Source: Cycloclasticus sp. symbiont of Poecilosclerida sp. N (GTDB taxonomy: Bacteria; Pseudomonadota; Gammaproteobacteria; Methylococcales; Cycloclasticaceae). From it: DNA of 64,000 bases. Both the position numbers and the translations under genes were made by a program. Under the pieces are notes generated by a model that did no database searches, was not told the DNA's origin, and saw nothing but the letters and a program-made list of their open reading frames with translations. Numbering within the stretch: the stretch's first letter is position 1; every line of letters starts with the position of its first letter. Of the stretch, positions 12,802 through 59,968 are shown one piece after another. The stretch is taken from positions 1 through 64,000 of the forward strand of contig LWTM01000075.1 of assembly GCA_002101205.1 (NCBI GenBank). The letters are read 5' to 3'.

Positions 12802-14169
12802 ATGTCATTTGAATCCCTCGGCTTACATGCCGACATACTTCGTGCTATATCCGAAAAAGGTTACACAACACCCACCCCTATACAACTACAAGCCATTCCT
12901 ACTATCCTTGCAGGTAAAGATGTTATGGGCGCCGCTCAAACAGGTACTGGCAAAACAGCAGGCTTCACCCTGCCGTTGCTGAACCGTTTAATGGAAACGC
13001 GTAACAGTCATGGCGGCAAACGCCAAATTCGTGCACTGGTGCTTACTCCGACCCGTGAATTAGCTGCGCAAGTAGGCGAAAGCATCGCCCTGTACGGCAA
13101 ACATTTACCCTTACGCTCCACAGTTATTTTTGGCGGCGTGAAAATCAACCCTCAAATTCAAAAGCTTCGCCAAGGCGTAGATATTCTTATTGCAACACCT
13201 GGGCGCTTACTTGACCATGTCGGCCAAAAAACTATTGATTTAACTCAAATTGATATATTAGTTTTAGATGAAGCTGACCGCATGCTCGACATGGGCTTCA
13301 TTCACGATATTCGTCAAGTTCTGGCGATTGTGCCAAAAGAAAAACAGACTTTACTGTTTTCGGCCACTTTTTCGGCTGATATCAAAACGCTAGCAAATGG
13401 TTTGCTCAAGTCACCTATGTTGGTAGAAGTAGCTCGCCAAAACACCACGGCTGAAAACATTTCCCAAGTGGTTCACCCTGTCGATAAAAAACGTAAACGC
13501 GAATTGCTATCGTTTTTAATTGGCTCAAATAACTGGCGCCAAGTGTTGGTATTTACCCGTACAAAACACTGTGCAAATAAGCTGACTGAGCAGTTGAATA
13601 AAGATGGCATTACCGCTGCCGCTATTCATGGCAACAAAAGCCAAGGCGCACGAACAAAAGCTCTTGCTAATTTCAAATCTAACACCATCCAAGTATTAGT
13701 TGCGACTGATATTGCCGCTCGCGGCATTGATATTGACCAACTTCCTCACGTCGTGAACTTTGAACTCCCGAATGTGCCAGAAGACTACGTCCATCGAATT
13801 GGCCGTACCGGTCGCGCCGGTAGCGAAGGCGAAGCGATGTCATTAGTTTGTGTTGATGAATTGAAACTATTGAAGGGTATTGAACGGCTTATCAAAATCG
13901 ATATACCGTCGATGATTATCGACGGCTATACGCCAGATCCAACCATTAAAGCCGAGCCGATTAAAAATGGTCGTGGCGGCCCGCGCCCACAAAGAAAGAA
14001 CAACGGACAAAGAACAGGCGGTCAAAAGCAAAATGGTCACAAACCTCAAGGACAGCCGGTCGCTAATGGCAAGCGTAAAAACCAATCATCGACAAACGCA
14101 CGTACAGCCAAACCAAAACAACGCCAAAGCAATAACGTCAATCGCCCTGATAACTTTGGCAATTGTTAA
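12802..14169 (+). CDS. rhlE: DEAD-box RNA helicase, RhlE type
   Basis: The 455-residue protein shows all helicase motifs: Q motif (TPTPIQ), Walker [22 protein letters not shown], and the C-terminal HRIGRTGR. A Gly/Lys/Asn/Gln-rich basic tail of about 80 residues ends the protein, as in RhlE. It remodels RNA, probably in ribosome assembly or RNA decay at low temperature. It lies beside a cold-shock gene transcribed away from it. A TATAAT at 12647-12652 may be its promoter. Confidence 0.93.
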
Positions 14170-48475: not shown

Positions 48476-49128
48476 TGGAAGAAATTAGTCTCAAAGAATA
48501 TCAACGGCTCATCAAAAATGTCGAAGTTATCGAAAAGGATGGTTTTGGCTTAAAGGTACTTGACACTAAAAAAGGCGAAATGATTAAATTATTTCGCCGA
48601 AAACGCGTTTTCTCTACCGCTTTTCTAAAACCCTACGCCGCCCGGTTTGCAGACAATGCGAAACGGCTTACCTCGCTCAATATTCCTACCGTTGCTGTTA
48701 ATCGACTTGTTTGGTGTCCGAGCATAAAACGGCACCTCGTTATTTATAAACGATTAGAAGGTGCGTTATTACGGGACGTTTTAACAAAAGAAATTAATAA
48801 AGAAGAAGTATTCAAGAATACTGGCACTTTTATCGCCGAATTACACGAGAAAGGCGTTTATTTTCGCTCAGCACATTTTAAAAATATTTTAGTTTTGCCT
48901 AACGGCCAATTGGGATTAATCGACGTCTCTGATATGCAAATTAAACGTAGTTCATTAGGCATCGACTTACGAAAAAGAAACTTCCAGCATATCCTTCGTT
49001 ACGAAAAAGACAAAACGTTGGTTCGCAACCACTTTAAAGACTTCTTTTCAAGTTACCTTACAGCAAGTCAGCTTGACGAAAATAATGCGCATAAAGTCGA
49101 ACAAACGATTCGATCTATTCTGGCTTAA
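48475..49128 (+). CDS. Kdo/WaaP-family kinase-like protein
   Basis: The 217-residue protein looks like a small protein-kinase-like fold of the Kdo/WaaP (toluene-tolerance, BUD32-like) group. It has VIYKRLEGALLRDVL in the hinge region, FIAELHEKGVYFRSAHFKNILVL where the catalytic loop lies, and LGLIDVSDMQ in the place of the DFG motif. The catalytic Asp of the HxD motif appears replaced (RSAHFKNIL), so activity is uncertain. It is coupled to the DUF465 gene and converges on the carbamoyltransferase gene with a 14-base overlap. Confidence 0.75.
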   Translation: MEEISLKEYQRLIKNVEVIEKDGFGLKVLDTKKGEMIKLFRRKRVFSTAFLKPYAARFADNAKRLTSLNIPTVAVNRLVWCPSIKRHLVIYKRLEGALLRDVLTKEINKEEVFKNTGTFIAELHEKGVYFRSAHFKNILVLPNGQLGLIDVSDMQIKRSSLGIDLRKRNFQHILRYEKDKTLVRNHFKDFFSSYLTASQLDENNAHKVEQTIRSILA

Positions 49129-50848
49129 TTTTCCTCACCAAAATATCTTCCATCACTAAATATTCCAAATCTGATCCATAGAACATATTTAGTGCATCTG
49201 CCGGAGAGCAAACCATCGGCTCACCACGGCGATTCAGGGATGTATTCAAAACCACCGCATTACCCGTCAGTTTTTCAACTTCGCTAATCAACGAGTAATA
49301 ACGCGGATTTGTTTTTTCAGTCACAATCTGCGCACGCGCTGTGCCATCTTCATGCACAACTTCTGGTATGCGTTCTTTCCAGCTTTCAGCCACATCGAAG
49401 GTAAACGTCATATAGGGGCTGGGATGATCAGTTTGCAAGATATCTTTTGCCACCGTATCTAAAATACTCGGGCAAAATGGTCGCCAACGCTCACGGTATT
49501 TAATTTGCGCGTTAATCCTGTCGGCAACACCTTTACTGCTAGGATTCCCAATAATACTGCGGTTGCCTAATGCACGTGGTCCAAATTCCATACGGCCTTG
49601 AAACCATGAAATAGGGTTACCATCGGCCAATAGCTTGGCGGTATATTCTGTTGTGTTTTCTAACACCTCATATTCAGGCTTATTCGGATGGTCTAAACAC
49701 GATTGAATACACTCGTCATTGCTATATTTAGGGCCTAAGTATACGTGCTCCATTTTTTCGATGCTGTCACCCAAATCGTTCGCGGCATAACTGGCTGCAC
49801 CTATCGCTGTCCCCGCATCGCTCGCAGCTGGCTGAACAAACAGTTCTTTAACATCTGGGCGAGCAATAATACGCTGATTTAATTTCACATTTAGCGCGAC
49901 ACCACCTGCATAACAAAGTTTGCCTGTTTCTTTAAGCGTGTCGCCTAAGTAAGTATCAATTAAGCCTAATGCGACCTTCTCAAGTAACGCTTGAATACTC
50001 GCTGCGTAGTCAATATAAGGATCGTCTATTTCATCTCCTGAACGTTTCGGGCCTAACCAATCAATCAATTTAGGGCTAAAGAAATAACCTTTGCCATCTT
50101 CTTTATAGCGGCGAAGTCCTAAGCAATTTACGAGCTGAGTGTTGACATGGAAATCTTTGCCATCGGTGTCAATCAGTCTTGAAAAATCAAAACGTTTTGG
50201 ATCGCCATAGGGTGCCATCCCCATCACTTTGAATTCCCCATCAAGCATTTCAAAGCCTAAAAACTCGGTCATTGCACCGTAAACGCCACCTAATGAATCT
50301 GGGTCATAAAATTCCTTTATCTTATGGATTTTGCCGTTCTCGCCGTAGCCAAAGAAAGTCGTTGCGTATTCACCCTTGCCATCAATACCAAGAATAGCGG
50401 TTTTTTCTTTAAAGCCGCTCAAATGATAGGCGCTGCTAGCGTGTGCTAAATGGTGTTCAACTGGTACAAATTTAACACGTTGTGAATCAATACCTAAATC
50501 ATCCAGCATTTTCATAACACTTTGGAAGTTTCTTTCATAACGGCGGTTGCCGTTGAATAATGCCATCAATGCTCGATCAGGTGCATACCAATGTCTTTTT
50601 GCATAGTGCCAGCGCGCTGGGCTTTGCAAGCCTATTTTTGCATAGGGAAAAGCAACAACATCAATTTCATCTGGCCGAATACCCGCTGTTTCTAAACAGA
50701 ACTTAGTCGACTCATATGGGAACTTACCTTTCGCGTGTTTATCACGTAAGAAGCGTTCCTCTTCTACCGCTGCGATTAATTTCCCATCAATATATAACGC
50801 AGCAGACGCATCATGGCTTACCGCACCAGAGAGACCCAAAACTTTCAT
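49115..50848 (-). CDS. NodU/CmcH-family carbamoyltransferase
   Basis: The 577-residue enzyme has the N-terminal Kae1-like domain with VEHHLAHASSAYHLSG (metal-binding histidines) and LGIDGKGEYATTF, a CYAGGVALNVKLN stretch, and the C-terminal YrdC-like hallmark QGRMEFGPRALGNRSI. It transfers a carbamoyl group from carbamoyl phosphate to a sugar hydroxyl. In Pseudomonas aeruginosa a family member (WapO) carbamoylates the inner-core heptose of LPS and lies among core kinases, much like the context here. The LPS role is therefore inference. Confidence 0.92.
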   Translation of the reverse strand: MKVLGLSGAVSHDASAALYIDGKLIAAVEEERFLRDKHAKGKFPYESTKFCLETAGIRPDEIDVVAFPYAKIGLQSPARWHYAKRHWYAPDRALMALFNGNRRYERNFQSVMKMLDDLGIDSQRVKFVPVEHHLAHASSAYHLSGFKEKTAILGIDGKGEYATTFFGYGENGKIHKIKEFYDPDSLGGVYGAMTEFLGFEMLDGEFKVMGMAPYGDPKRFDFSRLIDTDGKDFHVNTQLVNCLGLRRYKEDGKGYFFSPKLIDWLGPKRSGDEIDDPYIDYAASIQALLEKVALGLIDTYLGDTLKETGKLCYAGGVALNVKLNQRIIARPDVKELFVQPAASDAGTAIGAASYAANDLGDSIEKMEHVYLGPKYSNDECIQSCLDHPNKPEYEVLENTTEYTAKLLADGNPISWFQGRMEFGPRALGNRSIIGNPSSKGVADRINAQIKYRERWRPFCPSILDTVAKDILQTDHPSPYMTFTFDVAESWKERIPEVVHEDGTARAQIVTEKTNPRYYSLISEVEKLTGNAVVLNTSLNRRGEPMVCSPADALNMFYGSDLEYLVMEDILVRKIKPE

Positions 50849-51017: not shown

Positions 51018-51669
51018 TTACTTAGAATTTATTCCTTTTGGTGTGTTTTGAAAAAAAACCAATTTATCATCATCACTCCAGCTATTTGAATGACGCAAAA
51101 GTGTGTCTAAGTCTCTAAAAACTGCCCGTTTCTTACAAACTAGCTTTTTAGCTTTTTTCAAATCTATAACACGCAAGTGAACATCATTATTAGGTAAACT
51201 TTTGGAAAATATGTGTTCCAGATAAAAGCAATCATGTTGAAAATTATGTTGATGCATCGCTTGTATCAAAGATGCTATTTTCTTAAAAAGTACCACCTTT
51301 TGTTGTGTGTTCGCAAGTAACTTCCCGCCTATTTGATAGTCACCCGATGACAGCGGCATATAGCCCACTAGTTCTTCCGTCATAATGCAGGCACGCTGAT
51401 GTCCACCCGCTTTCCATTGATTGAAAGCCATCAGATCCAATGATGAAATATCGCGCTCTTGAAACGCCCGAATAACCTCAAACTCTCTCGAAAAAGTAGG
51501 TGTCCCTTGTATTGGGTGACAAAGCGTTCTCGTTACATGACTTTCTTGACGTTTAAGAAATACGCCAACTTTTCCTCCTAGTGGTAACCCTAATTCAATT
51601 CGAGAAACACCACTCCAACCGCCACGACAGTAATTAGGCTCTTCAAACCATTCTGCTTCAAGTGCTCAT
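51018..51669 (-). pseudogene. InaA/WaaP-type LPS kinase with an N-terminal frameshift
   Basis: From about 51659 to 51018 one frame gives a full kinase of the InaA type. It begins AEWFEEPNYCRGGWSGVSRI, has VGVFLKRQESH (ATP-binding Lys) and CHPIQGTPTFSREF, then HNFQHDCFYLEHIF and VRVIDLKKAKK. The natural ATG is at 51669 (MST), but the frame hits TGA at once. Removing one T restores MSTEAEWFEEP. As sequenced, only a shortened protein from 51440 (140 residues) could be made. It is either a recent frameshift or an assembly error. Confidence 0.75.
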
Positions 51670-51764: not shown

Positions 51765-52582
51765 ATGTCGTCTAAAAACCCATTATATCGGTATATATTT
51801 CACGGTACTCGATTAAATATTGCGCCTGAGGCACAACGGCCCTTACAAGCTGTGGGGCTAAATAACGCCAGTCTATGGGGTTCATTTAAAGAAGGCGTGG
51901 TCTTATCTCAGGGAACAACCACTTGTCTAAGAGTACCCCTTCCAAACAGTGACAAATGTATTTACTTTAAGCGTTACCACTATACAAAGAACCTTTGGGA
52001 GTTCTTCCTCCGGCGTAGCAAAGCCGCTAACGAGCTAGTCAATTACCAACGTTTTAAGGCTATAGGCATCCCTACCTTGGATACCTTAGCTTTATACGAA
52101 GAACGTTTTTTGGGACGGCTGAACATCGCCTGCATTGTGACGAAGGAGCTAAAAAACACTACCCGAGTTGACCATTTCTATACTGATGTTCTTCTAAAAA
52201 TGCCCCTGATGAATACCAAACTACTCTCAATCAAATTAAAGAAAAGCTTTTCGAACAAATAAGGCACGCACACCGTTCTGGTGTTTTTCACTTAGATCTA
52301 AAGTGGCGAAATATTTTAATTCAGCAAAAAGACAACGAATACACACCTATTTGGATAGACTGCCCTCGCGGGGTTCAACGGCATTTCTTTAATTACCGAT
52401 TAAAAGTTGCCGATTTAAGCGGCTTAACCCGCACAGCACTTAACTTTTTTTCAACTCAACAACTCTATCGAATGCTGCATTTGTACCTTGGCGAATCCGT
52501 AACTAAGAAGGAGGCAAGGAAATTATTCTTTGAGATAAAAAAACACCTAGAGCGAAGGCCACCTAAAGCCTGGCGCAACTAA
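51765..52582 (+). pseudogene. WaaP-type LPS core kinase with a mid-gene frameshift
   Basis: The first 145 residues from 51765 have the kinase N-lobe (IYFKRYHYTKNLWEFF, NELVNYQRFKAIGIPTLDTL). Near 52196-52200 an A-run has five A where six would keep the frame (LLKNAPDEYQTTL). After that shift the second half reads RHAHRSGVFHLDLKWRNILI (catalytic HLD and N) and WIDCPRG, ending PPKAWRN at 52582. Both halves are well conserved, so the loss is recent or an assembly error. The family phosphorylates inner-core heptose. Confidence 0.75.
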
Positions 52583-52887
52583 CCCTTTATTGGTTTTGAG
52601 CTAAGTTGCTGTCCTTTAGTAACAAAGGTGCCACAGCGAACGGCATGGCACTTAAGCACTGCACTTAAACTTCCACCCGAATAAGCTTTAATAAAATGAT
52701 TGGTATGACTCATGCCTCTAACAAACTTATTTTGGCCATGATGCACTCTAAAACACTTCTTATAACCAAAATCTACAAGTCCGTTATAACCGTGCCTACC
52801 ATCAAAATGAATAACGCTATTGATGTCGGTCTTTCCCCATATAATCCGCTGTAACGTTGATACTGAGCAGTTTGGGGAAATAGACAA
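52579..52887 (-). pseudogene. IS1595-family transposase fragment
   Basis: The 102-residue frame contains STLQRIIWGKTDINSVIHFD, GRHGYNGLVDFGYKKCFRVH and FVRGMSHTNHF, which match the DDE core of IS1595 transposases (SVIHSDGWRGYNGLVD). The INGIE-FW part has been lost and the tail is unrelated. It lies between the frameshifted WaaP gene and the CsgG-type operon and differs from the IS1595 copy at 2982. Confidence 0.65.
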
Positions 52888-52930: not shown

Positions 52931-53671
52931 TTATTGTCCAACATGATTGAGGATTATCGTAGGAAATTCATTACCGTCAACTTCGAGTCCACGTATTTTT
53001 ACAGTTTGAATGATATTATCGGCATTGGTAGTATCCCCATTTATACTATTGATACGCATATCACTGCGGTTGGAAGACCCGTTTTCTACAGACAAGCGAC
53101 CACTCAAATCTAACGTTTGAGTGATGACTCCGCTATAACGATCCGCCTTCATGTAATTAACTGCCTGGATATTACCCGCAGGCGTAGTTGCCGATTTCAT
53201 CAAGCTTACGGACACCCCTGTAACGGCTTGCGTTGCATCGCTAATGATGCCACCTGCCTCCGCATAGTTAAGAGCCTGAACATTGCCGCTACCCGTTACA
53301 TTTTGAGTCAGCTTCGCGCTGCTGAAATCCTCAACGGTTTGTTCTAACTGAATTATTGATGGGGCAGAAGCGAGATTGACGGTCTGCACAGTGGAATTTG
53401 TTGAACCGCTTTGCGTTAAAGTGACACTAGTCGCGGCAAAGGTGGCTTTTTGGGTGACAGAGGATAACGAATCGCCTTGCCCAATTACGTCAACCACTTG
53501 ACGGCTAAGTACGCTACCGTTAACCGCTTGACGGGAAGAGGTTGTATTTTCTTGCTTCATGTCAAATTTCGGAGAGGCTATGCTGACGGTTTGCATAACC
53601 TGCCAGTCGGCAGCAAGTACGCTTTGAGATGCGGGAATTAAAATAAACAATAAAGCAACTATTTTACGCAT
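52931..53671 (-). CDS. Secreted NxQAxN-repeat protein, third paralogue
   Basis: The 246-residue protein has a signal peptide ending SVLA and then ADWQVMQTVSIASPK. It shares with the two larger paralogues the N-terminal cap (ADWxxxQ, then SRQAVNGSVL). Repeat-like units follow: STVQTVNLA, GNVQALNYAEAGG, GNIQAVNYMKADR. It has fewer repeats than the paralogues and no QFGxFAG ending. I infer a minor subunit, nucleator or cap of a secreted fibre. It lies 18 bases after the CsgG-type gene, at the end of the operon. Confidence 0.8.
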   Translation of the reverse strand: MRKIVALLFILIPASQSVLAADWQVMQTVSIASPKFDMKQENTTSSRQAVNGSVLSRQVVDVIGQGDSLSSVTQKATFAATSVTLTQSGSTNSTVQTVNLASAPSIIQLEQTVEDFSSAKLTQNVTGSGNVQALNYAEAGGIISDATQAVTGVSVSLMKSATTPAGNIQAVNYMKADRYSGVITQTLDLSGRLSVENGSSNRSDMRINSINGDTTNADNIIQTVKIRGLEVDGNEFPTIILNHVGQ

Positions 53672-53689
53672 GTCTATATTCGTTTCTAT

Positions 53690-55429
53690 TTAAAAAGTTT
53701 GTTTGCTGACGTAACCTTTTTCGCCAGTAATTCTCTCCAGATTTACACTTGTTTCTTTAGCCGTCTCTTTTTTGGTATAAGGGCCTAGCCAGATTTGGGT
53801 GGCTTTTCCTAAGCCGCTTGGCACTATCGAATAGTTCGGCTTGTACCCAGCGGCATTCAGCTGTTTTGACACAGCCGCAACACTTTTGCTGTTGACGAAT
53901 ATACCGACGGCAACTTGCCACTGCGCAGCGTCATCAGCATTGGCTTGCGTTTCCTCTTGCTCGGTCTGCGCAATGCGCGTTGCATCTTCATTTTGTTCAG
54001 GCGCTTGCGTTGCTACTTGCTCGGCCTGCGCAATGCGCGTTGCATCTTCGTTTTGTTCAGGTGCTTGCGTTGCTACTTGCTCGGCTTGCGCAATGCGCGT
54101 TGCATCTTCGTTTTGTTCAGGCGCTTGCGTTGCTGCTTGCTCGGCCTGCGCAATGCGCGTTGCATCTTCGTTTTGTTCAGGCGCTTGCGTTGCTACTTGC
54201 TCGGCCTGCGCAATGCGCGTTGCATCTTCGTTTTGTTCAGGTGCTTGCGTTGCTGCTTGCTCGGCCTGCGCAATGCGCGTTGCATCTTCGTTTTGTTCAG
54301 GTGCTTGCGTTGCTACTTGCTCGGCCTGCGCAATGCGCGTTGCATCTTCGTTTTGTTCGGGTAAAGCCTTTAAAAGAGATGCGGGTGCTGCTACGGATGT
54401 TGGCTCTTGGGTTGGCACTCCTGCTGGCAAGGGCTCAGGTGCTTTCAGTTGCTGTACGGCAACAGCGCTTGGCAGTGATTTTTTAGCTTGTTGATTACGA
54501 GAATCACGACCCAACGCTTGTTTTTCATTGGTATCAAAACAGGGAGAAAAATCCACCATGCTACCAAAAGCATTATCTAAAATCCAAATCGCCCCTGCTT
54601 CCAACAATATTTGTTGGGCGGCGTGCACCGTTTCCACTCTAACATCAGTGTTGGAAAATCCATAGTAAAAATCACTGATAGCAACCCGGAAACGCGCCGT
54701 TTTACTATTGCTATAAAATTTCAAATCAAACCCTTCGGTGCCCACTACGGTATTCGTTTTGGGATCAATAATATTCACCACCAGAGTTATCGATCTTTCC
54801 GATCCCGACTTGCCGCGGTCAATAGAAGCCGATTGCTCCTCTTCAGAGCTACCCCGATAACCAGCATTTTGTCCATAACCTTTTGAACGGATATGTGAGC
54901 TATCGTAACGCGTGAATGCGCCATCAATAATCAATGGCATAACCGTCTTGACTGCCGGCATTCCCTTTGACTGCCGGTTGGCGTTAGTAAAAGCCGTCAA
55001 CATTGACAGGTAGGTGTTTAGATCTTTTGTGGAAGGCAGACCAAAACGGTTTATGCCGATTTGCTCATTATTAGTCTGTTCAAACAAGAGAGGAAATCGA
55101 TCCATTACTAGACCGTAACGCGGTTTGGTATGTGCGGTTAGTATGCTAATCATTTGAACCCGACCGGCATCCGCTAATGGACCATCATAGTCGCTGTTAA
55201 CCGTGCCATCGGCAATATCGCGCACCAGAAAAGCATAGGCGCCTAGATTATTTGCCATGTTTTTCTCCAACTCGCTACCAAGGCATTGCAAGGCTTCGGT
55301 CATGTTTGTTTTGGTTTTGGTGGGGGATGAATCGAAGTCAGTATCAAGGCTAAAGCGCGAGTAACTGGAGCAACTGGACACCGCTAGGGCGACACCAATG
55401 ATAAACAGGCTGGTCAGGAACTTGTTCAT
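53690..55429 (-). CDS. CsgG/HfaB-type export lipoprotein with repeat region and SPOR domain
   Basis: The start at 55429 (MNKFLTSLFIIGVALAVSSC) gives a lipoprotein of 579 residues; an upstream Met would add 52 residues overlapping the previous gene. Residues about 40-320 resemble the CsgG/HfaB curli-secretin family (MTEALQCLGSELEKN, VMPLIIDGAFTRYDSSHI, SITLVVNIIDPKTNTVVGTE). Residues about 357-490 are seven near-identical 20-residue repeats (APEQNEDATRIAQAEQ). Residues about 497-577 are a SPOR domain (WQVAVGIFVNSKSVAAVSKQ), known to bind denuded peptidoglycan. CsgG forms the outer-membrane channel for curli subunits; the SPOR fusion is unusual. Confidence 0.85.
   Translation of the reverse strand: MNKFLTSLFIIGVALAVSSCSSYSRFSLDTDFDSSPTKTKTNMTEALQCLGSELEKNMANNLGAYAFLVRDIADGTVNSDYDGPLADAGRVQMISILTAHTKPRYGLVMDRFPLLFEQTNNEQIGINRFGLPSTKDLNTYLSMLTAFTNANRQSKGMPAVKTVMPLIIDGAFTRYDSSHIRSKGYGQNAGYRGSSEEEQSASIDRGKSGSERSITLVVNIIDPKTNTVVGTEGFDLKFYSNSKTARFRVAISDFYYGFSNTDVRVETVHAAQQILLEAGAIWILDNAFGSMVDFSPCFDTNEKQALGRDSRNQQAKKSLPSAVAVQQLKAPEPLPAGVPTQEPTSVAAPASLLKALPEQNEDATRIAQAEQVATQAPEQNEDATRIAQAEQAATQAPEQNEDATRIAQAEQVATQAPEQNEDATRIAQAEQAATQAPEQNEDATRIAQAEQVATQAPEQNEDATRIAQAEQVATQAPEQNEDATRIAQTEQEETQANADDAAQWQVAVGIFVNSKSVAAVSKQLNAAGYKPNYSIVPSGLGKATQIWLGPYTKKETAKETSVNLERITGEKGYVSKQTF
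53958..54360 (-). repeat. Seven tandem 60-bp coding repeats
   Basis: The unit begins GCTTGCGTTGCTACTTGCTC on the plus strand and encodes 20 residues on the minus strand. Six units (54001-54360) are nearly identical, differing at two or three positions, and the seventh at the 53958 side is diverged. Because the unit has no stop in any frame, all plus-strand frames are also open here; they are shadows. Confidence 0.95.
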
Positions 55430-55433
55430 GAAA

Positions 55434-55910
55434 CTAATTGCAGTTGCGAAAATCGACTTGTTCAATAAATACATAGCTATCTCCCGGTCCTTGGTTAGCA
55501 AAAACCGCACATTTGGGGTTCTTGATATTGTCCACATAAAAAGTCTGGCCTCTGGAATCAATGACTTGAAAGCCACCCTTTCCATAGACTCTGTCGCTGC
55601 TTTCGGCTATAGCGGCACTAGTGCCACTGTCTGGGGTGACCTCGGATACTGCGCGTCGCCGTCCAAGGACACTGCCTACAATCAAATTATCAGTAGATAA
55701 AAAATCTAAACTTTCACCTGCTTCTGAAATTAACTTGGAATTTTGCACTTGACCGTAACTAAAAGACGGTCGTTTTACTGATGGAATGTTGCTCCAGCCA
55801 GGCCTGTATTCTCGAAATTCAAGTTCTTGTGCAACAGAAAACGAAGCATAACCCACCAGCAGCGTGGCAATCAACAAGTTCGTGGTCAATAATTTCGTGT
55901 CTGACAACAT
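55434..55910 (-). CDS. Small secreted protein, possible HfaA- or CsgF-like partner
   Basis: The 158-residue protein has a signal peptide (LLTTNLLIATLLVGYASFSV, then AQ). The mature part contains PSFSYGQVQNSKLISEAGES, VYGKGGFQVIDSRGQTFYVD and a C-terminal Cys pair (PKCAVF ... FRNCN) that could form a disulfide. I do not recognise a named family. It ends four bases before the CsgG-type gene, like HfaA before HfaB in Caulobacter or the accessory factors beside CsgG, so I infer a periplasmic or surface partner of the channel. Confidence 0.8.
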   Translation of the reverse strand: MLSDTKLLTTNLLIATLLVGYASFSVAQELEFREYRPGWSNIPSVKRPSFSYGQVQNSKLISEAGESLDFLSTDNLIVGSVLGRRRAVSEVTPDSGTSAAIAESSDRVYGKGGFQVIDSRGQTFYVDNIKNPKCAVFANQGPGDSYVFIEQVDFRNCN

Positions 55911-55965
55911 TCTAAGTCTCTGTTTTATAAGTTAAAATAGCGGGATAGCAAGGATATTAGGCTCA

Positions 55966-57153
55966 CTACCGCCGCAGACCGGCAAAATTACCAAACTGAC
56001 CCGATGTGGTAGCTACTCTTTGATCCATGCTAAACGCTCCTGAGGCAGTCAACGATTGACGAGCTTGCGTAGCAGCCGAACCGCCTGTCTTATCTGTTAT
56101 TGCGTTGAGTGCTTGCAGGCTGTCAACCACCCCCCCCGTCTGGGTCATAGTCATAGTTCCTTCGGTGCTGAACACTTGATGGTCTGTTAGATCAGTTATG
56201 GCACCTTGGCCAATATCAATCAAGTTGCCTGCTTGAACCAGTTCACTGACGGTGGGGCCTGCGAAGGGGCTCATGGTAAACACATTATCCCTCGATGAGC
56301 CAGTAAATGTTTGGCTAATTTCAACTATGACTGATCCTGTTCCATCGGTCCTAGCCATATTGCCCGCTTGGATATTGCTAGAGCCGGTGCCAACCAGGTT
56401 AAAAAAGCCTAAACTAGAGTTAAGGAAGGAAAATGTTTGCCTCAAATCAGTAATACTACCAAGAGAATCAACCATATTGCCAGCCTGGACATTACCACTG
56501 GCGGCGTTTCTACTGCTCAACGTAAGCCCATTCGCCCCCGTATGGTCGAAACTTTGAACTAACGTGTCAACAGTCCCGGACGAGTTGGCAGTGGTATCCG
56601 CCAAGTTCAGTGCTTGAACATTGTTAGTGTTCGAGCCTATCTCTTGCCCTAAATTGATTTCATTAGTTATGGTCAATTCTTGTGCTGCATTTACTATATT
56701 CCCAGTTGAACTGGTTACCATGACGTTGCCACCTTGAACATTATTGCCAGCGCCCGCTTTTTGAGTCATCAGAAGTACGCCAGTCATCACGCCTGTTTGC
56801 CTTACTAAGCCAGTAGCACCAGTAGCACCAATATTCCTGGCGGCGATGTGGTTGATCGCTTGACTAGACCCGACTGTCGTTTGACCATCCTGGTTCATGT
56901 CAAGCGCTCTTGCCAATATGGGAGCAGTCTGCGAGCCGGATACTAAGTCATCCTCAGCACCGTTAAGCACAACGCCGTTAATCGCCTGTCTGCTGTTTGA
57001 TACGGCAGTCGTTACGCCTTGGTCAAGACTCAACTGCGTTAGATTGGTAGTGGTTATGTCCGCACTTTGCGTAATCGTCCAATCAGCCGCCAGCGAGTTG
57101 AAAGAGGCGGTTACGAATCCTGCGACAATAATTATTTTCAATAAGTTTTTCAT
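55966..57153 (-). CDS. Secreted NxQAxN-repeat protein, second paralogue
   Basis: The 395-residue protein has a signal peptide (MKNLLKIIIVAGFVTASFNS, LAA) and begins ADWTITQSADI. It then has SRQAINGVVLN and eight or so units of about 35-40 residues centred on N(V/I)QA(L/G)N, each with a second Gln further on (for example NVQALNLADTTANSSG ... LVQSF; NIQAGNMARTDG ... ISQTF). The C-terminus is QFGNFAGLRR. The regular Gln/Asn ladder resembles curlin repeats and suggests a beta-solenoid or amyloid-like fold; this is inference. It lies 56 bases before the small secreted gene. Confidence 0.85.
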   Translation of the reverse strand: MKNLLKIIIVAGFVTASFNSLAADWTITQSADITTTNLTQLSLDQGVTTAVSNSRQAINGVVLNGAEDDLVSGSQTAPILARALDMNQDGQTTVGSSQAINHIAARNIGATGATGLVRQTGVMTGVLLMTQKAGAGNNVQGGNVMVTSSTGNIVNAAQELTITNEINLGQEIGSNTNNVQALNLADTTANSSGTVDTLVQSFDHTGANGLTLSSRNAASGNVQAGNMVDSLGSITDLRQTFSFLNSSLGFFNLVGTGSSNIQAGNMARTDGTGSVIVEISQTFTGSSRDNVFTMSPFAGPTVSELVQAGNLIDIGQGAITDLTDHQVFSTEGTMTMTQTGGVVDSLQALNAITDKTGGSAATQARQSLTASGAFSMDQRVATTSGQFGNFAGLRR

Positions 57154-57227
57154 TTTTGCTAGTATCCCCTTGACGTGGAAGCTTAGATTATTTGTTTTAT
57201 AAGTTTAAATATCGGATGATCAGTGTA

Positions 57228-58657
57228 TTACTTCAATTCACCTGCAAAACTACCAAACTGACGCGAGCTAGTCATTGCATTTTGCGACATCGCAAACGGT
57301 CCTGTGGTAGAAATCGTCTGGTGAGCTTGCGTAGCAAGCGTACCGTTCACCTTATCTACTATTGCGTTGAGTGTTTGCAAGTTGTTAGTACCGCTTCCCA
57401 GTTGGGTCATAGTGATACTGCCTACTCCGGTGGCGAACACTTGATGAGGGCCTGATGTATCGGTTAGGGCACCTGTGCCAAGAGCAATCAAGTTGCCAGA
57501 TTGAACCAGGTTATAGCCTGACCACTTTTGGTTAAAATCATTCACAGTCCCTGAGCCAGTAAATGTTTGGGTGATTGCCTCTATGACTGATGCTGGCCAT
57601 CGGTCCTAGCCATATTGCCCGCTTGAATATTGGTGTTGCCGCCCCCAGTCATGTCAAAGTCTACTAGCGCGCTGTTGGTTGCGGTAAAGGTTTGCTCCAA
57701 ATCAGTAATGCTACCGAGAGTATCAACCAGATTAGCCGCCTGGACATTGGTCGTGCTACCAGCGTCACTGGTGAAAGTAGTGCTGCCCGCCGCATTGGTG
57801 AATGTTTGAACTACCGCACCAACAGTGCCCGCATTGGCAGTGGTATCTACTTGGTTCAGTGCTTGAACATTGTCATTACTACCCACTATCATATTCTGCG
57901 TTAAACTGATTTCAACACTTGCAGTAAACGCTTGTGAAGCCGCTGCTACGCGGGTCCCACTGTCACTGGTTACCGCGACGTTGCCGCCTTGTCTGTTATC
58001 ACCACCGGTCGCCGCTTGACTAAAAGTGGTGCTGCCGGTCACCGATGTAGCCTGTTCAAGTTTGTTTGCATCATCGACACCTATGGTCTGTCCGAAAGCA
58101 TAGTTCACCGCCTGCACGTTCTCTGCTGAGACTACGGCATTTTGAATCAATGATAACGTGCCGCTCTCGGTGATAACTTGATTCAAATTATTAATGGTGC
58201 CCGTACCAGATGCCTTACCTATGTTCAGCGCTTGCACGTTCCCAACTCCGCCGCCACTACCGACCTCTTGAGTAAGGGTTGTCGCTGTTGACTCACTGGT
58301 TACTGTTTGCGTTACCGTAGTACCACCAGAACCTGTGCCAACATTCTGGGCTTCAAGGTAGTTGATTGCTTGACTAGACCCGTCCACATTCGGCCCTTGT
58401 GTCAGATTCAAACTGGTTATTGAGGTTAAGGTCGCGAGCTGCGATGAACCACTTGCCAGGCTATCCTCATCAGTATTAAGCGCAATACCGTTAATCGCTT
58501 GTTCGCTATTGCTTACATTAGTGGCGTTACCCTGTTTAAGATCTGGCGCAGCGGTCTCTATAGTCGCGGTTTGAGTAACCGTCCAATCAGCCGCTAACGC
58601 GCCGAAAGAAACGGTTGCGAATATCGCAATAAAAATTAGTTTGAACGTGCTTTTCAT
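57228..58657 (-). pseudogene. Secreted NxQAxN-repeat protein, first paralogue, one-base frameshift
   Basis: The start at 58657 (MKSTFKLIFIAIFATVSFGA) has AAGGGG seven bases upstream and a signal peptide, then ADWTVTQTATIET and SEQAINGIALN. About eight units follow (NVQALNIGKASG, NVQAVNYAFG, NVQALNQVD, NVQAANLVD, NIQAGNMARTDG). Near 57588-57600 one base is missing compared with the paralogue (DGTGSVI there), giving a stop at 57581. The other frame resumes with IEAITQTFTGSG and ends RQFGSFAGELK at 57228. Joined length would be about 475 residues. It is the first gene of the operon and looks like the main subunit. Confidence 0.8.
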
Positions 58658-58747
58658 ATCGAGCCCCTTTGTTTTAGTTAGCATTTCACAGCCTAGAAAT
58701 TTATGATTGAGTGTTTGTTAATTCAAGCAATTTAGTCATTGTGGAGC

Positions 58748-58844: not shown

Positions 58845-59968
58845 TGTCTGAGTTCAGTACCTGTGAGACAAGTCAGGCGACCTGCATGCGTTGTTGATAA
58901 TAACGCATGGGTATTTCTAATCTCACACCATCAGGCGGTCGGTAATGGTGCCGCCACCCGCTACGCTTGTATTAGTCGTACGGGTATTGTTCGAGCTTCT
59001 GATTCACTGAGGCTATCGTTAATGCGCCCTCGTAAACCGGATAAAACTCATAACGAGTCGTACCTTTGGCGCGCTCCACACACCCATTCCATTTTGGCTT
59101 TCTTGGCGGCAAGACAAATAGAGATATGTTCAACGCTTCGCAGGCGCGCTCAAATTTATCCCTAAACTGACTGCCGCCATCCATCTGAATGGAGATCAAG
59201 TCGAAGGGTAGTTGCTCCATCAGGTATTCAAGCAAGCGTTTGGCATTGCGGCTAATGCGCATAATGGTTGTCCCTGTCACACAGTTGGTGGCTTTAAACT
59301 CTTTGAGGACAAAGCCTTCTGGAAAGCTCACGCTCATGTGACCAACCTATATTAACTGTCTAGGCTGCTTGGCCTTCATGCCATAGCACCAGCGTTTGGC
59401 GTGACGCTTGAATTGACGCTGGCGTTTGGGCTTATCCCCTCCCGTAGTAAAAAGCCGCTGGGGGAACGCGACCACGCCCAATCAATCGTTTAAGGATTCG
59501 TCCAACGGTGCTGACGCTGAGTGTAAAACCATCGCCGCGATGCAGCCCCTTCCATATCTTGCGTTTACCCCGACAAAGGGTAGCACTTGCGCAAATGAAA
59601 AGCGGCTTGTTGCTTTGTCCGTTGTTGTTAGCGGGTTGTCCTAGGGCGACAACTTTGCGCTTCCAGGCCTAACCTACCCACTTGGCGGTAACGCTTTAGC
59701 CAGCGGTAGTAGGTGCCTTTTGACCAGCGGGTGGCTTGTAGGCGAAGAACCGGCGAGCAATCTTCTGATTTTAACTGCTCGTGAGTTCAAGCTTCTTTAT
59801 CCGAACAATAGCTTCTGCGCCCACCGTGTCGGCAACAGATCAACTTCTGTATGATTTCATTCACAGGTTGTTGATCTGCATCGGCTTGTCTCCTGTGTTT
59901 AGTTAACAACTCACAGGCTACCCAAGTTTTACATCTCAAAAAGTCTCACTTCTATCTGAACCCAGACA
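58845..59968 (-). mobile_element. IS481-family element, degraded
   Basis: It is bounded by TGTCTGAGTTCAG ... GTGAGAC at 58845 and the inverse TGTCTGGGTTCAG ... GTGAGAC at 59943-59968, an imperfect inverted repeat of 26 bases, giving 1124 bases overall. The C-terminal half of the DDE transposase is open from 59337 (LISIQMDGGSQFRDKFERAC, LPPRKPKWNGCVERAKGTTR). The N-terminal half (59340-59900) is broken into several frames with stops. A detached copy of its right end lies at 17411. Confidence 0.8.

Follow-up and report, generated by a model that had tools for sequence, protein, structure and literature searches.

We analyzed a stretch of 64,000 nucleotides (contig LWTM01000075.1, positions 1 to 64,000, hereafter the window) from a Cycloclasticus sp. 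symbiont of Poecilosclerida sp. N, in which a compact minus-strand operon at 52931 to 58684 codes for two secreted repeat proteins, a small secreted protein, a lipoprotein, and a third, shorter repeat protein, in this order. According to the open reading frame (ORF) coordinates, the successive genes are 74, 55, 4, and 18 bases apart. An initial annotation of this DNA had already described the operon at this place and with this tight spacing, giving the first two gaps as one base too long (75 and 56). Read by eye, every product carries an N-terminal signal or a lipoprotein signal sequence.

Repeat gene 2 (55966 to 57153) codes for a protein of 395 residues in which a signal peptide ending in SLA precedes a mature start of ADW, followed by eight repeats of about 41 residues. 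The protein contains 8 QxxN motifs, spaced by 39 to 45 residues and with the consensus N-x-Q-A-x-N; 2000 shuffles gave 1.1 on average and never more than 6. Repeat gene 3 (52931 to 53671) codes for a short paralog of 246 residues that shares the ADW N terminus and the repeats. The cleavage pattern of these proteins, judged by eye, is AxA before ADW, and the mature start [AN][DE]W-x-[VI]-x-Q is common to all 10 repeat proteins compared from the window and its relatives. Repeat gene 1 (57228 to 58684) is split into two ORFs (57581 to 58684 and 57228 to 57545), with a change of frame near 57590 and an in-frame ATG at 58657 that suits its signal peptide. The second piece is 53% identical to residues 271 to 392 of repeat protein 2 and, as both pieces are homologous to repeat gene 2, they represent a single gene interrupted by a frameshift, coding for a large secreted protein that is also predicted to be a solenoid. 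The frameshift may be a true mutation or a sequencing error in the draft assembly. Phase variation was rejected as its origin, because the junction contains no homopolymer. The three secreted NxQAxN paralogs of the initial annotation are thus sound in their signals and in their repeats, which are far above chance, and mistaken only in treating the first as one open frame.

Built from five sequences, the model that AlphaFold gives for repeat protein 2 consists entirely of beta structure, each repeat of about 41 residues contributing three strands (predicted local distance difference test [pLDDT], 75; predicted template modeling score [pTM], 0.82). A Foldseek search with this model gave no significant match (best E value, 0.02). 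In VIA-align 2 it resembles the three-sided beta-helix adhesins SRRP (Z of 19.1 and root mean square deviation [rmsd] of 4.1 over 264 residues), PfbA (Z of 15.6), and UpaB (Z of 15.2), and the curli protein CsgA reaches the same Z as PfbA but with an rmsd of 9.3. As repeat proteins give generically high scores in such comparisons, we limit the claim to the solenoid shape. In curlin, a turn comprises about 23 residues and there are two sheets (PMC10192328), so the solenoid of the repeat proteins has a different geometry; neither these proteins nor the genome match the curlin family PF07012. The repeat proteins are therefore predicted to be three-sided beta-solenoids with three strands per turn, not two-sheet curlin. 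The idea of a secreted repeat-protein system is upheld by these signal peptides and predicted solenoids, while the term amyloid-like adhesin, used in the initial annotation, amounts to a guess for repeats that are not curlin and a solenoid predicted to be three-sided. The likeness to SRRP, PfbA, and UpaB is one of predicted overall shape, with a sequence identity of about 9% and solenoid matches that are generic. These adhesins are exported by autotransporter or Gram-positive secretion, unlike the route that we propose below.

The lipoprotein gene (53690 to 55429) codes for 579 residues with a lipobox cysteine at position 20, assigned by eye. Its conserved core comprises residues 1 to 312 (54494 to 55429) and is 56 to 71% identical to the core of the other copies; Cys20, Cys49, and Cys297 are invariant in the six aligned sequences. 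The core was modeled solely from these six sequences of its own family, and Foldseek ranks CsgG in all of the first eight places (E value of 4.8e-6, probability of 1.00). In VIA-align 2, CsgG is also first (Z of 11.5 over 179 residues), followed by FlgT (9.0), PelC (8.3), and TolB (8.0). The model thus supports a CsgG-type fold for the core despite the absence of a match to the CsgG family PF03783. The CsgG/HfaB type given to this protein by the initial annotation holds for the fold, including the structure comparison by which it could have failed, and not for the PF03783 search that had been suggested as a check; similarity to HfaB is not significant once only mature sequences are compared.

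Beyond the core, the lipoprotein continues into a repetitive linker (53943 to 54358), a tandem repeat of 6.9 copies of a 60-bp unit (about 20 residues each, 96% matches), and ends in a putative SPOR domain (53690 to 53932). When the last 80 residues were searched alone, SPOR was found with an E value of 7.6e-4 and 20.2 bits, just under the 21-bit cutoff of PF05036, while the homolog on L004, a contig of a metagenome-assembled genome, matches the same family with 47.7 bits (E value of 1.9e-12). The homolog in G401, a genome of the same genus, has instead an SH3_3-like domain at its tail (E value of 2.9e-5, just under the cutoff). SPOR domains bind denuded peptidoglycan at the division septum (PMC6895207), and we infer from this that the tail could tether a lipoprotein ring to the cell wall. 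Our literature search returned no paper mentioning CsgG with a SPOR domain and none combining CsgG with peptidoglycan binding and SH3. This tail on its repetitive linker was missed by the initial annotation, as was the frameshift in repeat gene 1. Opposite the 60-bp repeat, three long overlapping antisense ORFs (53841 to 54494, plus strand) are an expected by-product of the tandem repeat and not genes.

The small secreted protein (55434 to 55910) has 158 residues, with an N-terminal signal recognizable by eye, as first annotated, and its C-terminal part contains two conserved cysteines. In each of the four other operons that cover it (G256, G352, G375, and G401), its gene immediately precedes that of the lipoprotein. 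We found no Pfam or NCBIfam family for it, and hhalign comparisons with CsgF and HfaA gave nothing above shuffles. Both were rejected as relatives, CsgF after an early above-shuffle score vanished once the signal peptides were trimmed, and HfaA because its scores did not exceed those of reversed or shuffled controls.

The analysis confirms that the operon exists and is conserved. The gene-order comparison proposed in the initial annotation gives the same succession of large repeat, small secreted protein, lipoprotein, and short repeat in those four genomes, and L004, which begins at its contig start inside the operon, shows the last two genes. Searches were made with the core alignment (A5) alone at the phylum level, as the tail in the full alignment (A1) matched ordinary SPOR proteins in many genomes. 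Outside its own genome, 2 of 369 class-level genomes have the core, as do 3 of the 21 genomes of family f145 (G256, G352, and G375, counting full-length hits only), a single genome of the same genus (G401), and the contig L004; 298 other genomes sampled from the phylum gave no hit. The copies lie in unrelated settings (gene names by eye): in G401 between rsmI upstream and an IS3-type transposase and then mraZ downstream, in G256 and G375 beside a phosphoesterase gene, and in L004 before a glutamine synthetase-like gene. The IS3-type transposase of G401, also identified by eye, occupies positions 13648 to 14472 of L063. The identity of the lipoprotein core to the window copy is 71% for L004, 63 to 66% for f145, and 56% for G401, whereas for HtpG, encoded on the same contig, the order is inverted, with 53% for L004, 54 to 55% for f145, and 74% for G401. 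Unless one or both copies were transferred horizontally, this inversion is difficult to account for. Most other genomes of the genus have an HtpG that is 83 to 87% identical to the one on this contig, which therefore belongs to the source organism. Taken together, the unrelated genomic settings and the discordant divergence support the view that this rare operon has probably moved horizontally as a mobile cassette. A plasmid search gave no match and, in the htpG flanks of five same-genus genomes, no queried window protein other than HtpG was found, so no insertion site is definable.

The initial annotation had also argued for acquisition as an island from insertion sequence (IS) remnants of the IS1595 and IS481 types on both sides. 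The discordant divergence agrees with such an acquisition, while the flanking remnants add little. The upstream one is a transposase or integrase-core remnant (58972 to 59337, minus strand) that matches rve_3 below the cutoff (E value of 8.7e-4). On the other side, a remnant at 52579 to 52887 (minus strand) resembles an IS1595 transposase by eye, and its central part has no Pfam match even at an E value of 10. Further along are two fragments of Kdo/WaaP-type lipopolysaccharide (LPS) kinases on opposite strands, 51018 to 51440 (minus) and 51765 to 52262 (plus), with Pfam Kdo E values of 2.1e-18 and 4.2e-5; they share a 24-bp inverted repeat at 83% and are possibly an inverted, broken duplication. 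Adjoining the island, an intact carbamoyltransferase with both the Carbam_trans_N and Carbam_trans_C domains (49115 to 50848, minus strand) is perhaps part of a surface-polysaccharide cluster.

The operon resembles curli in several respects: the lipoprotein core finds the CsgG fold by structure search, the substrates are likewise secreted Gln/Asn-rich repeat proteins, and the gene of a small secreted protein directly precedes the channel gene, as csgF does in the loci that we read. Among these, the alphaproteobacterial CsgG loci G507, G566, G570, and G578 have curlin-like partners, and three of the four have CsgF-like proteins (by eye and motif). However, the window operon has no match to PF03783, curlin, CsgE, or CsgF (the last two from the Pfam and NCBIfam searches of the small protein, the rest of the genome not having been searched for them), its repeat has three strands instead of the two of curlin, and its lipoprotein carries a C-terminal SPOR/SH3 domain. 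As there are no curlin repeats, membership in curli fails.

The operon most likely works like the CsgG/HfaB systems. On balance, we consider it probable that it is dedicated to exporting and anchoring a surface adhesin and is distinct both from curli and from the known holdfast anchor of Caulobacter. The repeat proteins would enter the periplasm via Sec and expose their shared mature N terminus, whose ADW motif may have a targeting role. Still unfolded, they would cross the outer membrane through a ring of the CsgG-fold lipoprotein, acting as a putative pore, and fold outside the cell into beta-solenoids of about 8 to 11 turns that could stay at the surface and mediate adhesion or stack into fibers, perhaps of amyloid character. 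The small secreted protein, whose gene is placed like that of CsgF or HfaA, may be an accessory factor at the ring, and the SPOR or SH3-like domain at the C terminus of the lipoprotein, carried by a linker of about 190 residues, would tether the ring to peptidoglycan; SPOR would favor denuded septal or polar glycan.

Several results weigh against this proposal. PF03783 has no match in the lipoprotein or in the whole genome, with four control genomes positive, and the Pfam and NCBIfam searches of the lipoprotein gave no CsgG domain. The AlphaFold model (AF2) of the core is of low confidence (mean pLDDT of 54.8, pTM of 0.62), and the would-be membrane hairpins (about residues 176 to 210 and 240 to 264) have a pLDDT below 50, so pore formation can only be an assumption. 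When mature sequences alone are compared by hhalign, the lipoprotein scores 23.5 against HfaB (column shuffles, 15.5 +/- 2.9; maximum, 27.2) and 21.1 against CsgG (15.4 +/- 2.4; maximum, 26.2), both inside the range reached by chance. The G352 copy gave no hit to a SPOR or SH3 domain, and its tail resembles by eye the ends of the G256 and G375 copies, which means that tethering is not a general feature. Last, one of the three substrates is frameshifted in the window copy.

The strongest competitor, though an unlikely one, is that the lipoprotein forms a periplasmic ring or scaffold like PelC or FlgT instead of a pore, and the repeat proteins reach the surface otherwise or act in the periplasm. 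The fold group also holds these two proteins, the putative transmembrane hairpins are poorly predicted, the first of them being rich in charged residues, and a peptidoglycan-binding tail would suit such a scaffold. CsgG nevertheless ranks first in both aligners, the operon has no PelB- or flagellum-like partner gene, and secreted repeat substrates encoded together with the lipoprotein fit an exporter better.

It seems more doubtful still that the operon is a divergent HfaABD, the Caulobacter holdfast anchor (PMC6707917), with the small protein as HfaA, the lipoprotein as HfaB, and the short repeat protein as HfaD, anchoring an exopolysaccharide. The succession of small secreted protein, CsgG-like lipoprotein, and secreted repeat protein is that of hfaA-hfaB-hfaD in the loci read; HfaD is present in eleven genomes, in this order wherever all three genes were read. 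The nearby LPS kinase and carbamoyltransferase genes would agree with it, as would the full-length hhalign score of the lipoprotein against HfaB (35.5, E value of 3.8e-4, with the AL.C motif aligned; reversed control, 15.2). This score was rejected as proof of kinship, since it was mainly due to the signal peptide and lipobox and falls to the chance range without them. The HfaD model NF037936 finds nothing in the window genome, its Caulobacter control being positive, and the small and repeat proteins show no similarity to HfaA and HfaD beyond reversed or shuffled controls, for which HfaD was rejected as a relative. The HfaB sequences inspected by eye also lack a SPOR/SH3 tail. As HfaD is absent, membership in HfaABD fails, and the holdfast-like label of the initial annotation finds no significant support in the profile comparisons with HfaA, HfaB, and HfaD without signal peptides. 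Very improbable is a decaying, nonfunctional remnant, suggested by the frameshift, the adjacent transposase remnant, and the absence of the operon from most same-genus genomes, since the remaining four genes are intact and retain their conserved motifs, the second large repeat gene could take over the role of the first, and the frameshift may be a draft-assembly error.

An export-and-anchor operon of this kind leads to a broader and more tentative proposal, to which we incline less than to the export role itself, of a separate CsgG-fold system in which divergent rings tethered by SPOR or SH3 domains, perhaps at the septum or poles, would export three-sided solenoid adhesins that assemble at the surface with no component of curli or of the holdfast. 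What is mainly known of CsgG-type pores is the export of curlin, a protein with an almost invariable two-sheet solenoid. If the proposal is true, the range of their substrates would be widened to solenoids of another geometry, and the peptidoglycan-binding tails would suggest how a CsgG-type pore is positioned in the envelope. Another implication is that further CsgG-fold systems may be missing from annotations, being out of reach of PF03783.

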